NCBI RefSeq assembly: GCF_036186745.1 | Contig: NZ_CP108086.1 | Location: forward strand, 4,960,001 to 5,024,000 | Direction: 5' to 3' | Length of the DNA: 64,000 nucleotides | DNA from: Microbispora hainanensis | Lineage (GTDB): Bacteria > Actinomycetota > Actinomycetes > Streptosporangiales > Streptosporangiaceae | In this document: piece after piece, positions 24,496 to 30,877 of the stretch | Position numbering within the stretch: the first letter of the stretch is position 1 | Layout of the letters: every line of letters starts with the position of its first letter | The notes under the pieces: model-generated | What the model saw: the letters and a program-made list of their open reading frames with translations, nothing else | Told to the model about the DNA's origin: nothing | Databases searched by the model: none | Translations under genes and position numbers: made by a program

Positions 24496-25437
24496 TTAAT
24501 GAAAACGAGACTCGCCCACGCGGGCGGCGATCGCCTGCTGGTACAGGCGTCCGGCCCGGTAGGACGAGCGCACCAGCGGCCCGGACATGACGCCGGCGAA
24601 GCCGATCTCCTCGGCCTCCTGCTTGAGCTCCACGAACTCCTCGGGCTTGACCCAGCGGTCCACGGGGTGGTGGCGCGGGGTGGGGCGCAGATACTGCGTG
24701 ATGGTCACCAGGTCGCAGCCGGCCTCGTGCAGGTCGCGCAGCGCCTGGGTGATCTCCTCGCGCTCCTCGCCCATGCCGAGGATGAGGTTCGACTTGGTGA
24801 CCAGCCCCGCCTCGCGGGCCATGCTGATGACCCGCAGCGAGCGCTCGTAGCGGAACGCGGGCCGGATCCGCTTGAAGATCCGGGGCACGGTCTCGATGTT
24901 GTGCGCGAAGACCTCGGGCCTGCTGGAGAAGACCTCCTCCAACTGGTCGCGGTCGCCGTTGAAGTCCGGCACCAGCAGCTCGACGCCGCAGCCGGGCACG
25001 GCCTCGTGGATCTGCCGGGCGGTCTCCGCGTACAGCCAGGAGCCGCCGTCGGGCAGGTCGTCACGGGCGACACCGGTCACCGTGGCGTAGCGCAGGCCCA
25101 TCTGGCGCACCGACTCGGCGACGCGGCGCGGCTCGTCCCGGTCGTACTCGGCCGGCTTGCCGGTGTCGATCTGGCAGAAGTCGCAGCGCCGGGTGCACTG
25201 GTCGCCACCGATGAGGAAGGTGGCTTCGCGGTCCTCCCAGCATTCGGAGATGTTGGGACAGCCCGCTTCCTGGCACACGGTGTGCAGCCCCGCGCCCTTC
25301 ACCAACGATTTGATCTCGTTGAAGTTGGGGCCGTTGTGCAGCCGCGTCTTGATCCACGGCGGCTTCTTCTCGATGGGGGTCTGGCTGTTGCGCACCTCCA
25401 GGCGGAGGAGCTTTCGGCCTTCAGGAGCGACGGTCAT
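24496..25437 (-). CDS. lipA: Lipoyl synthase
   Basis: LipA is a radical SAM enzyme that inserts two sulfur atoms into octanoyl groups attached to lipoyl domains. The 313-residue protein has both cluster motifs: the auxiliary cluster C-x4-C-x5-C in [12 protein letters not shown] and the radical SAM C-x3-C-x2-C in CTRRCDFC. The C-terminal RSSYRAG is the conserved serine-ligand motif (Ser binds the auxiliary cluster). All catalytic elements are intact. The ATG at 25437 follows a GAAGGAAG sequence. Its natural partner LipB is 1.5 kb upstream but altered, and the E2 protein needing lipoate (sucB) is at 29.4-30.9 kb. Confidence 0.96.
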
Positions 25438-26004: not shown

Positions 26005-26643
26005 ATGGCCGAGGGACTGCGGGAGCGCAAGAAGCGGCGGACCAGGCAGCACATCGCCGAGGTGGCGGTCGGGCTGTTCGTGGAGCGCGGCTTCGACAAC
26101 GTCACGATGGCCGAGGTCGCGCGGGCCGCCGAGGTGTCGGTGAACACCGTCTACAACTACTTCCAGGCGAAGGAGGACCTCGTGCTCCCGCCGGAAGAGG
26201 CGTCGCCGCGCAGGCTGGCCGACATCGTGCGGGAGCGGCCGCCGGGACGGTCGGCGGCCGGCGCGGTGCTGGACCGGCTGCGCCGGGAGATCCGCGGGCG
26301 CGAACGCTCGGTCGGGCTGAGCGCGGGATTCGGGCGCGTGCTGGAGATGATGCGGGCCGCCCCCACGCTGACCGCCCGCCTGGAGGACCTCGGCCGCCGG
26401 ATGACCGACGAGCTGGCGGCCGAGCTGGCCGAGGAGACCGGCGCGGACGCCGGCGATCCGCTGCCGCGCGTGGTCGCCTGGCACATCGGCTGCCTCCACT
26501 CGCTGGTGTACGCCGAGATCGGGCGGCGTACGACGGCGGGGGAGAGCCCGGACGCCATCGCGGACGCCGTGCTGGAGCTGCTCGACGTCGCCGAGAGCGT
26601 CCTGGGCGAGCGCGTCCGCGCCTATGCCGTACGAGAGGGATGA
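26005..26643 (+). CDS. TetR/AcrR family transcriptional repressor
   Basis: A 212-residue repressor. The N-terminal DNA-binding domain is canonical: RERKKRRTRQHIAEVAVGLF, then GFDNVTMAEVARAAEVSVNTVYNYFQAKEDLV, seen as TMAEVARAAEVSVNTVYNYF. The C-terminal helical domain binds an unknown ligand. A 34-bp dyad abuts the start codon, there is no clear ribosome binding site, and the mRNA may be leaderless or nearly so. The stop overlaps the DUF6204 gene by ATGA, so both are made from one message. Confidence 0.9.
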   Translation: MAEGLRERKKRRTRQHIAEVAVGLFVERGFDNVTMAEVARAAEVSVNTVYNYFQAKEDLVLPPEEASPRRLADIVRERPPGRSAAGAVLDRLRREIRGRERSVGLSAGFGRVLEMMRAAPTLTARLEDLGRRMTDELAAELAEETGADAGDPLPRVVAWHIGCLHSLVYAEIGRRTTAGESPDAIADAVLELLDVAESVLGERVRAYAVREG

Positions 26644-26942
26644 CCGTGTTCAGAGTGACGATCAGAGGGAAGTTCACCGGGCTCGACGACGCCGGGCGGG
26701 CGGCGGTGACGGCGGCGGGCGGCATGGGCTACACCGAGGGCGGCACGTTCACCCACGACGCGAGCGTGTCCGCCTTCACCTTCCGCTGCCAGGTGCCCGC
26801 CGGGCCGGACGACGGCGAGGACGAGGCCGCGCTGGGGGCGATGGCCGCGCTGGACGCGCACGGGCACCCGTACGAGATCCTGCACCTGGCGGTGACCGAC
26901 ATGCGGCAGATCAAGATCCGCCGGAAGGGCCGCGGCGCGTAG
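26640..26942 (+). CDS. DUF6204 family protein coupled to TetR
   Basis: A 100-residue protein beginning MTVFRVTIRGKFTGLDDAGR, typical of the DUF6204 family of small actinobacterial proteins. It looks like an alpha/beta ferredoxin-like fold with a long beta-hairpin (GGTFTHDASVSAFTFRCQV) and a basic C-terminus (MRQIKIRRKGRGA). The start overlaps the TetR stop by four bases. No activity is known; the coupling suggests a shared role with the repressor, perhaps ligand handling. Confidence 0.75.
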   Translation: MTVFRVTIRGKFTGLDDAGRAAVTAAGGMGYTEGGTFTHDASVSAFTFRCQVPAGPDDGEDEAALGAMAALDAHGHPYEILHLAVTDMRQIKIRRKGRGA

Positions 26943-26945
26943 GCG

Positions 26946-27599
26946 TCAGGCGAGGTCCTCCTCGTACAGGTCGTACGGCTCCTCGCCCAGGGCCTCGGCG
27001 AGGCGCTTTCCGGCGAACGGGATGACCTCGTCGACCATGATCCGCCGCCCGGTCTCGGCCGCGAGCGACGTGACCCCGGCGTCGTCGCCCGCGATGCGGG
27101 TGTACCAGCTCAGGTCGTTGACGCAGTTGAGCGCGAAGCCGTGCATGGTGACCCCGCCGGAGACCCGGATGCCGATCGTGCCGATCCTGCGGTCGGGCAG
27201 CCCGTGCGCGGGGTCGCCGGGCACCCACACCCCGCCGGCGCCCTCCACGCGGCGCGCCGTCAGCCCGAAGTCGGCGCAGACCTGGATCAGGACCTCCTCC
27301 AGCAACCGGATGTAGGAGGTCACGTCGCCGATGCGGATGATGGGGTAGCAGACGAGCTGCCCCGGGCCGTGCCAGGTGATCTTCCCGCCCCGGTCGACGT
27401 CGATGACCGGAGTGCCGTCGACCGGGCGCTCGTGCGGCAGCGTCCGCTTGCCCGCCGTGTAGACGGGGGCGTGCTCCAGCATGAGGCACAGGTCGGAGAT
27501 CTCGTCGGCCACCCGCCGGGCGCGCAGCCGCCGCTGCAGGGTCCACGCCTGCTCGTACGGTACGTCGACGCCGAGGCGGACGATGGCCACGCCCTTCAC
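26946..27599 (-). CDS. lipB: LipB-type octanoyltransferase homologue lacking the catalytic Cys and Lys
   Basis: LipB moves octanoyl groups from acyl carrier protein to lipoyl domains through a Cys thioester assisted by Lys. The 217-residue protein has the family core: [14 protein letters not shown], then [27 protein letters not shown] and [18 protein letters not shown]. However, the segment that should read about RK(V/I)AAIG reads RRIGTIG, so the Lys is Arg, and the segment that should read about IVPCGISDAGVTSL reads [11 protein letters not shown], a precise loss of three residues including the catalytic Cys. The GTG at 27599 was chosen because AAGGG lies about 10 bases upstream. It probably cannot perform standard octanoyl transfer. 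Three bases separate it from the convergent DUF6204 gene, and a 13-base repeat (AACGTGAAGGGCG) spans its start. Confidence 0.85.
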
Positions 27600-27619: not shown

Positions 27620-28360
27620 TCACAGCGTAGAGGTCAGCAGCCGGGGCTCGATACGCAGCTCCTTCACTGCGGACCCGTCCCGCTCGATCCGGTAGGCGTA
27701 CCCCTGCGGGTCGGTGGTCACGGCCTGGATGAACTCGGTGCCCACGTAGTGGAGCGCCACGCCCTCGTCGGCGGCGTACCCCTCGGGCAGCTCGCCCGAC
27801 GCGACCGACTTGTGCAGCAGCGCCCGGCGCTGCGGGTCGGAGTTGTAGTGGACGCCGCACGAGTACGGCAGCAGGCCCAGGCCCTCGGCCCAGGGCCGCA
27901 GCTTCGGCCCGAACGAGTCGGTGTTGCCGCCGATGTGCCAGCACAGCGCGCCGGCGCTCTGCCCGGACAGCACGATGCCCGCCCGCCACGCCTCGGCGAA
28001 CGCCTCGTCCAGGCCGTGCAGCCGCCACAGGGCGGCGAGGTTGGCGACGCTGCCGCCGCTCACGTAGATCGCGTCCTGCTCCAGGATCCACTCGCGGGGG
28101 TCCTCGACGTTCGGCATCGGGAAGACCGTCAGGTGGCTCACCTCGACGTCCCAGCGGGCGAACGCGCCGTACATCTTGAGCAGCCAGTCGGCGTCGTCGC
28201 CGGTGGCGGTGGCGAGCAGGCCGAGCTTGGGCCGGTCCTGACCGGTGAGGTCGAGGACGTAACGCAGCAGGGCGGTCGGCTCGATGAACCCGTATCGCTC
28301 CGTCTGCCGGAACGATCCGCCTCCGATGGCGACGATGTGCGACTGCCCGATGCGGCTCAT
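27620..28360 (-). CDS. Peptidase E-like (S51) hydrolase
   Basis: A 246-residue member of the S51 dipeptidase E family, class I glutamine-amidotransferase-like fold. Visible features are [10 protein letters not shown] at the N-terminus, [15 protein letters not shown] and the nucleophile elbow [10 protein letters not shown] with the catalytic Ser. Characterised family members cleave Asp-X dipeptides or cyanophycin; this protein's substrate is not known. ATG 28360 was preferred because AGGAG lies 7 bases upstream. It is followed after 20 bases by the lipB gene and preceded by an epimerase gene, so a transcript across all three is likely. Confidence 0.85.
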
Positions 28361-28393
28361 GCCCATGCTCCTGTTCCCGGATCGAGTGACTCT

Positions 28394-29392: not shown

Positions 29393-30877
29393 CTACGCCA
29401 GGCCGAGCTGGGCCTCGAAACGGCCCTCCTCGAGACGGTGCTTGATCGTCGTGAGGAAGCGGGCCGCGTCGGCGCCGTCGACCAGGCGGTGGTCGTAGCT
29501 GAGCGCGAGGTACACCATCGAGCGGACCGCGATGACCTCGCCCTCCGGGGTGTCCACGACGACCGGGCGCTTGACGACCGCGCCGGTGCCCAGCATGCCG
29601 ACCTGCGGCTGGTTGAGGATCGGCGTGTCGAACAGCGCGCCCCGGCTGCCGGTGTTGGTCAGCGTGAACGTGCCGCCGGTGATCTCGTCCGGGCTCACCT
29701 TGTTGGTGCGGGTGCGCTCGGCCAGGTCGGCGATCTTCCGGGCGAGCCCGGCGATGTTGAGGTCGCCCGCGTTCTTGATCACCGGGACGAGCAGGCCGCG
29801 CTCGGTGTCGGTCGCGAAGCCGAGGTGCTCGACGTCGAAGTAGGTGACCTCGTTCGTCTCGCTGTTGATCGTCGCGTTCAGCTTCGGGTGCTGCTTGAGC
29901 GCCTCGACCGCCGCCAGGGCGAAGAACGGCATGAAGGTCAGCTTCACGCCCTCGCGCCGCTGGAACTCCTCCTTGGCCCGCTCGCGCAGGCGGGCGATGC
30001 GGGTGACGTCGACCTCGACCACGGTGGTGAGCTGGGCCGAGACCTGCAGCGACTCCACCATGCGCTTGGCGATGGTCTGCCGCAGGCGCGACATCTTCTC
30101 CGTACGGCCGCGCAGCGTGGTGTCCACCCGCACCTCCGACGCGGCGGGCGCGGCGGCGGCCGGGGCGGCGGGCGCCTGGGCCGGGGCGGGCGCCGCCTGC
30201 GGGGCCGGGGTGGCGGCAGCGGCGGCCGCGGCCTGCTCGCGCTGGACGCGGGCGGCCTCGATCACGTCCTGCTTGCGGATCCGGCCGCCGACGCCGGTGC
30301 CGGTCAGCGAGTCGAGGTCGACGCCGTGCTCGGCGGCGAGCTTGCGGACCAGCGGCGTGACGTACGGGCCCTCGCCGGACGAGGGCAGCGGGGCCGGCTC
30401 GCTCGGCTGCGCGGCCGGGGCCTGCGGAGCCGGGGCGGCGGGGGCCTGCGGGGCCGGGGCGGCCTGGGCCTGCGGAGCCGGGGCGGGCGCCGGGGGCGCC
30501 GGCGGCGTCACCACGGCGGGCGCGGGCTGCGGGATCGACGAGACCGGCGGGGCCGGCGCGGGGGCCGGAGCAGGCTCGGGCTCGGGCTGCGGAGCGGGAG
30601 CCGGAGCCGCCGGCTCGGCGGCGGCCGGAGCGGCGCCCGCCTCGGAGTCGATCAGGGCGAGCTCGGCGCCGACCTCGACCGTCTCGTCCTCAGCGACGAT
30701 GATCTTGGTGAGGTAGCCGGCGGACGGCGACGGGATCTCGGTGTCGACCTTGTCGGTCGACACCTCGAGGAGCGGCTCGTCGGCCTCGACGCGGTCGCCT
30801 TCCTTCTTCAGCCAACGGGTGACGGTGCCCTCGGTAACGCTCTCGCCGAGCTGGGGCATGGTTACGGAGACCGGCAT
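29393..30877 (-). CDS. sucB: Dihydrolipoyllysine succinyltransferase, E2 of 2-oxoglutarate dehydrogenase
   Basis: The E2 core carries acyl groups on lipoyl arms and passes them to CoA. The 494-residue protein has one lipoyl domain (residues 1-78) with the modified Lys43 in STDKVDTE, a long Ala/Pro linker (about 80-165), a peripheral subunit-binding domain with [18 protein letters not shown] near 172-190, a second Ala/Pro linker and the catalytic domain ending with the active site [16 protein letters not shown]. It may serve both 2-oxoglutarate and pyruvate complexes, as in other actinobacteria. Only one lipoyl domain is present. It is 33 bases downstream of lpd and forms one operon with it. 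Confidence 0.92.

Follow-up and report, generated by a model that had tools for sequence, protein, structure and literature searches.

A LipB homologue without the catalytic Cys/Lys dyad in Microbispora and its relatives, probably a pseudoenzyme partner in lipoylation

The stretch of Microbispora hainanensis DNA analysed here (64,000 nucleotides, hereafter the window) carries a gene, lipB1 (26946..27599, minus strand), whose product is a homologue of the octanoyltransferase LipB that lacks both residues of the catalytic Cys/Lys dyad. By sequence and by locus this protein, LipB1, is a member of the LipB family, and judged by its catalytic residues it is not a LipB enzyme. It bears the marks of a pseudoenzyme, namely loss of the catalytic residues combined with retention of the gene under purifying selection, and comparison of its sequence with those of its relatives leads us to regard it as a LipB pseudoenzyme that probably serves lipoylation as a non-catalytic binding partner.

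Results

A LipB homologue lacking both catalytic residues

The 217-amino-acid translation of lipB1 has no internal stops. It matches the Pfam family PF21948 (LplA-B catalytic domain; E 2.1e-33; 116 bits, cut-off 27) and the NCBIfam LipB model NF010925 (270.6 bits, cut-off 155), and its nearest match in sequence among solved structures is M. tuberculosis LipB, 1w66 (E 5.3e-62). None of the LplA, LipM or LipL models of NCBIfam and Pfam match LipB1, whose only matches are to models of LipB and to the shared domain PF21948. Pairwise alignment with 1w66 pairs RKVAAIG, the segment that carries the catalytic Lys (Lys142 in M. tuberculosis, Lys135 in E. coli), with RRIGTIG, and places Arg138 at the position of this Lys (codon AGG, 27186..27188, minus strand, computed from the start of the ORF). 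In the same alignment, IVPCGISDAAVTSL of 1w66 is paired with an 11-residue stretch of LipB1 that reads IAGDDAGV in place of the PCG loop and contains no Cys; residues 169-173 of this active-site loop (IAGDD; 27081..27095, minus strand) occupy the place of IVPCGISD.

The absence of both dyad residues from a LipB homologue was the core of the original prediction, and it is borne out by the profile matches, by the alignment with 1w66 and by a survey of the genus. Neither residue is present in the LipB1 of any of 15 Microbispora genomes, the window's own included; the Lys position is occupied by Arg in 14 of these proteins and by Met in one, and the other 14 proteins are 78-99% identical to that of the window. 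Dyad loss is thus a real feature common to these close relatives rather than an artefact that resequencing might remove. A clean loss of three residues from the loop had also been proposed. The net shortening is correct for this species, but it is not a fixed feature, as other Cys-less LipB1 loops differ in both length and letters (for example RITGDLTGDDAG, RIMRGDVGDAG and RIPGEGVV).

Stepwise erosion of the dyad

We compared 91 LipB1 sequences, comprising that of the window, those of 80 loci and those of 10 further genomes. The Lys position is filled by Lys in 14 of them, Arg in 32, Gln in 31, Met in six, Gly in four, Ala in three and Leu in one. The Cys is kept in 67 of the 91, both residues in 14 and neither in 24, and every sequence without the Cys is also without the Lys. 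Dyad loss had originally been described as the property of one protein; this is true of the LipB1 in the window, but across the clade the pattern is one of stepwise erosion. The dyad is intact in all 50 sequences of a second LipB, LipB2 (see below), in all 41 lipA-locus LipBs from outside the clade and in 19 of 19 LipBs from other families.

A tree of 102 sequences, 21 of them from outside the clade, was built after removal of the Lys column and the loop, and it separates LipB1 from the 21 outside sequences at an SH-aLRT of 100. The fewest changes on this tree are seven for Lys versus not-Lys and three for Cys. Because the tree was built quickly and leaves 36 of its 98 inner branches open, both counts are lower bounds that apply to this one tree. 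Loss of the Cys is found in a group formed by Microbispora, Microtetraspora, Planotetraspora and Sphaerimonospora, in Acrocarpospora catenulata, and in an actinobacterial MAG that has Trp in place of the Cys, as does the genome G071.

With regard to sampling, 24 of 30 loci (L033-L062) contained a LipB-like stretch and 21 of these were used, leaving out L049 and L060 (dyad intact) and L062 (41% identical, unclassified). Twenty LipB1 loci were fetched additionally, 10 of which were left out as duplicates of loci already counted; loci L063-L082 and the genus members L012, L015 and L017 were read but stand outside the 91. Of the 86 genomes in the LipB2 clade, 48 are represented among the 50 LipB2 sequences; the remaining two are LipB2-like genes from G203 and G039, with those of G500, G504, G162 and G146 uncounted. 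The 41 outside sequences include G146, G162 and G147, each of which has at least two LipB-like matches.

A second LipB with an intact dyad

The original prediction held that lipoylation must still occur in this organism and proposed a genome search for a second lipB, lplA or lipM/lipL. The whole genome encodes two PF21948 proteins at E <= 0.001, which are LipB1 and LipB2 (G000:C1:3084954-3085589), and no LplA or LipM was found by this search. LipB2 is approximately 42% identical to LipB1, and its segments RKIVSIG and VPCGMPD contain an intact dyad. The genome also has one lipA, one GcvH and 14 biotin/lipoyl domain matches. We judge that the expectation of ongoing lipoylation was right and infer from the residues of LipB2 that it supplies the octanoyl transfer that LipB1 would lack. 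Both proteins belong to the LipB family, but LipB2 differs from LipB1 in its conserved dyad, in the absence of the acidic tail described below and in its different locus.

A recent duplication as the origin of LipB2 is unsupported, since LipB1 is nearer to the lipA-locus LipBs of genomes outside the clade (56-68% identity among the matches listed) than to LipB2. In a sample of 296 genomes from the same phylum but outside the family, no close relative of LipB2 was found, and the best match to LipB2 (L001:1456-2094) is 52% identical.

Among 200 sampled genomes of the family, 87 have a gene of the LipB1 clade (E <= 2.5e-91; next match 9.5e-79) and 113 have none. All 87 carry a second LipB, which belongs to the LipB2 clade in 86 (E <= 1.1e-92) and is more distant in one (G039, 2e-52), and each of the 86 LipB2-clade genomes also carries LipB1. 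The two genes were inherited together in one clade, and their co-occurrence is therefore a single evolutionary event rather than repeated independent evidence.

LipB2-like genes are present in four more genomes (G203, G162, G031 and G146; E values from 4e-71 to 4e-48). Outside the clade, G146, G162, G500 and G504 each have a LipB2-like gene with both dyad residues beside a dyad-intact LipB of the lipA-locus type, so the notion that a second LipB forces dyad loss is not general. LipB2-like genes were seen in three of the 13 genomes examined from genus g38, which also lies outside the clade; two of these (G500 and G504) keep a dyad-intact LipB without the acidic tail. In the third, G203, a single-contig genome that is 98% complete, the LipB2-like gene (G203:C1:421389-421970, L270) is the only LipB match, as if it had replaced the old lipB. 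Neither G203 nor the incomplete G031 has a LipB1-type gene in addition to its LipB2-like gene, which indicates that complete loss of the old LipB can occur. A second LipB is thus compatible with either loss or coexistence of the old one, and it is in the LipB1 clade only that a tailed, mostly dyad-poor LipB1 is kept throughout.

A retained pocket and a conserved acidic tail

Residues expected to form the acyl-pantetheine pocket are present in LipB1, including Arg70-Gly71-Gly72 (27384..27392), HGPGQ at residues 77-81 (27357..27371) and His153-Gly154 of HGFALN (27138..27143), all on the minus strand. R70, G71, G72, H77, G78, P79, G80, Q81, Y85, H153 and G154 are invariant in all 24 Cys-less LipB1 sequences, and Thr75 is kept in 19 of them. 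Matching by motif equates Arg70, Thr75, His77 and His153 of LipB1 with Arg71, Thr76, His78 and His150 of E. coli LipB, which, according to one report (PMC9307952), correspond to the positions through which LplA contacts the lipoyl group. The same report describes an inactive E. coli LipB double mutant, K135A/C169A, that still binds octanoyl-ACP with a KD of 36.4 µM, and dyad loss is therefore compatible with binding. The residues missing from this mutant are the same two that LipB1 lacks, although the mutant was engineered, whereas LipB1 occurs in nature, is subject to selection and is predicted to bind.

The original prediction allowed that another Cys, such as that of FALNCVND (Cys159), might be placed at the active site. 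Cys159 is found in all 91 LipB1 sequences and in 40 of the 41 LipBs from outside the clade, and Val takes its place in 49 of 50 LipB2 sequences. This residue is thus ancestral, which weakens it as a replacement nucleophile. The universal presence of Cys159 in LipB1, together with the kept pocket residues and the purifying selection on the gene, would nevertheless fit a protein that still handles acyl or lipoyl groups by another mechanism, for example through direct attack on bound octanoyl-ACP by a lysine of the substrate, through hydrolysis, or with Cys159 itself as the nucleophile. We consider such an enzyme unlikely, because the Lys position accepts R, Q, M, A, G or L and the Cys-less loops vary in a manner unlike a new active site, and because the distribution of Cys159 is that of an ancestral residue which the dyad-bearing LipB2 proteins mostly do without.

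LipB1 proteins typically carry a C-terminal acidic tail, which in the window reads DLYEEDL (26952..26972, minus strand). The motif E[ED][DE][LVI], mostly EEDL, occurs near the C terminus of all 91 LipB1 sequences and within the last 25 residues of 90, with an extension following it in one (L213). It is found in none of the 41 outside LipBs and in one of 50 LipB2 sequences, at an unrelated place. A stricter pattern, which additionally requires an acidic residue three positions before the motif, is seen in 84 of 91 LipB1 sequences and in none of the 41 outside LipBs or 50 LipB2 sequences. When LipB1 tails were shuffled as a control, 788 of 18200 contained the motif, compared with 122 of 18200 shuffled tails from the other 91 proteins. 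At the codon level, the first Glu of the tail is invariant in 81 sequences (GAG in 55, GAA in 26), and constancy of the residue with variation of its codon implies that selection acts on the protein. Given that the tail is present with or without the dyad, it most simply arose before the dyad was lost.

The lipoylation locus and a neighbouring serine hydrolase

Genes on the same strand at the lipB1 locus include an S51 gene, yfcH, sucB, a gene for dihydrolipoyl dehydrogenase, and lipA; the lipB locus of M. tuberculosis likewise contains sucB, yfcH and lipA. The lipoyl synthase gene lipA (24496..25437, minus strand) matches its NCBIfam model above the cut-off and is the only copy in the genome, in agreement with the original description of an intact neighbour. 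One lipoyl domain was found in the E2 protein encoded by sucB (29393..30877, minus strand; NCBIfam and Pfam matches), and the presence of the lipoyl-Lys motif DKVDTE agrees with the lipoyl Lys noted originally. In the window, TetR and DUF6204 genes on the opposite strand (26005-26942, plus strand) stand between lipB1 and lipA. Six Microbispora loci (L083-L088) also have a TetR gene in this position; M. amethystogenes and M. corallina have none there, and in them lipA closely follows lipB1.

Across the clade, lipA is on the same strand as lipB1 in 73 of 80 loci. Within the stretch examined it was not found in the other seven, those of six Herbidospora and Acrocarpospora catenulata (L116, L118, L123, L125, L130, L137 and L142), and strict coupling of lipA to lipB1 is accordingly rejected.

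The S51-family serine peptidase gene (27620..28366, minus strand; PF03575) lies 20 bases upstream of lipB1 in the window. In all 80 loci lipB1 is preceded by an S51 gene of the same orientation, at distances of 5 to 1275 bases (median 61), and the motif GxSAG is found in 81 of 81 S51 sequences. The dN/dS of S51 is 0.11 in the Cys-less group and 0.20-0.23 in Streptosporangium, Sphaerisporangium, Nonomuraea and Herbidospora. The constancy of this neighbour, which extends to the seven loci where lipA was not found, raises the alternative that LipB1 acts with the S51 serine hydrolase outside cofactor attachment, either by moonlighting or in a new function of the operon. However, S51 also stands beside a dyad-intact lipB in six of 24 LipB loci with short flanks (among L033-L062), and the link between the two genes therefore predates dyad loss. 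This and the same-strand lipA of most loci make a role outside cofactor attachment rather improbable in our estimation.

Selection on LipB1

Ratios of dN/dS were calculated by the Nei-Gojobori method with our own script, leaving out pairs with dS >1.2 or <0.05. For 11 Microbispora, LipB1 has a ratio of 0.194 (55 pairs) and LipB2, in the same species, one of 0.181 (54 pairs); other genes give 0.124 (lipA), 0.114 (S51) and 0.282 (yfcH). In the main Cys-less group as a whole LipB1 reaches 0.252, compared with 0.111 for lipA, and in Cys-bearing genera its values are 0.173 (Streptosporangium), 0.168 (Sphaerisporangium), 0.183 (Nonomuraea) and 0.071 (Herbidospora). LipB1 is thus under purifying selection, with some relaxation likely in the Cys-less clade. 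Of 83 columns invariant in 21 LipBs from outside the clade, 57 are retained throughout the main Cys-less group (21 members); the remainder include the Lys, the adjoining Ala141, the PCG loop, two columns with gaps in this group and scattered substitutions, only some of which are conservative.

The raised ratio in the Cys-less clade is among the observations that might be expected if LipB1 were a redundant, slowly decaying relic that survives by chance or because the operon requires an open frame at this place. The second LipB with an intact dyad, the repeated erosion of the dyad and the absence of the old LipB type from G203 could be taken in the same sense. Against decay, LipB1 is present in 86 of 86 LipB2-clade genomes and no LipB1 match in the 200 family genomes has an internal stop, its dN/dS in Microbispora is close to that of LipB2 in the same species, and the pocket residues are invariant and the tail conserved; we therefore regard a relic as quite improbable. 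A sequencing or assembly error in this genome can be dismissed, because both residues are missing from the LipB1 of all 15 Microbispora and from 24 of the 91 sequences overall.

Discussion

The reading that we prefer is that LipB1 is a pseudoenzyme retained as a partner in lipoylation. The ancestor of the clade would have held two LipBs, and LipB2, encoded elsewhere in the genome, would have assumed octanoyl transfer, with LipB1 remaining at the old lipoylation locus and carrying an acidic C-terminal tail. Several losses of the Lys and three or more of the Cys would then have followed in LipB1, which keeps the pocket residues for the phosphopantetheine arm and its acyl chain. The task of LipB1 may be to present octanoyl-ACP or a lipoyl domain to LipB2 or LipA, or to regulate them, and the acidic tail could be a docking element. 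The original prediction had suggested a new role, either as a transferase with a different mechanism or as the partner of another ligase. A partner fits our findings better, and a different mechanism fits them less well, given a kept pocket, repeated erosion of the dyad and a conserved tail.

LipB1 can be compared with several known systems. It shares with the octanoyltransferases of M. tuberculosis (1w66) and E. coli the same sequence family and the motifs RGG, HGPGQ and HGFALN, but differs from them in having neither catalytic residue, a variable active-site loop and a conserved acidic C-terminal tail. The two-part LplA-LplB ligases and the LipM/LipL relay, as outlined in a further source (PMC10332631), likewise use an accessory or relay protein in lipoate assembly; of these, LipL is an amidotransferase and LplB serves as an accessory domain, whereas LipB1 is a complete protein of the LipB type. 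In those parts of the open-access literature that were searched, no description of a natural LipB pseudoenzyme was found, and the terms lipoyl, lipoate, lipB and octanoyl are absent from the main text of an omics paper on P. rosea (PMC4514598).

Models such as NF010925 label Cys-less proteins of this kind as lipoyl(octanoyl) transferase LipB, and such labels should be read with caution. The clade offers a graded natural series, in which the dyad is intact, the Lys is lost or both residues are lost, beside an intact paralogue, and the change from enzyme to non-enzyme could be tested in it step by step. More tentatively, it is possible that LipB1 has become an obligate non-catalytic subunit of lipoylation. 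In this view its acidic tail would join it to LipB2, LipA or E2 in a complex, and LipB1 would determine the place or the time of octanoyl attachment. If this were true, lipoylation in this family would run on an enzyme together with a pseudoenzyme derived from a former enzyme.
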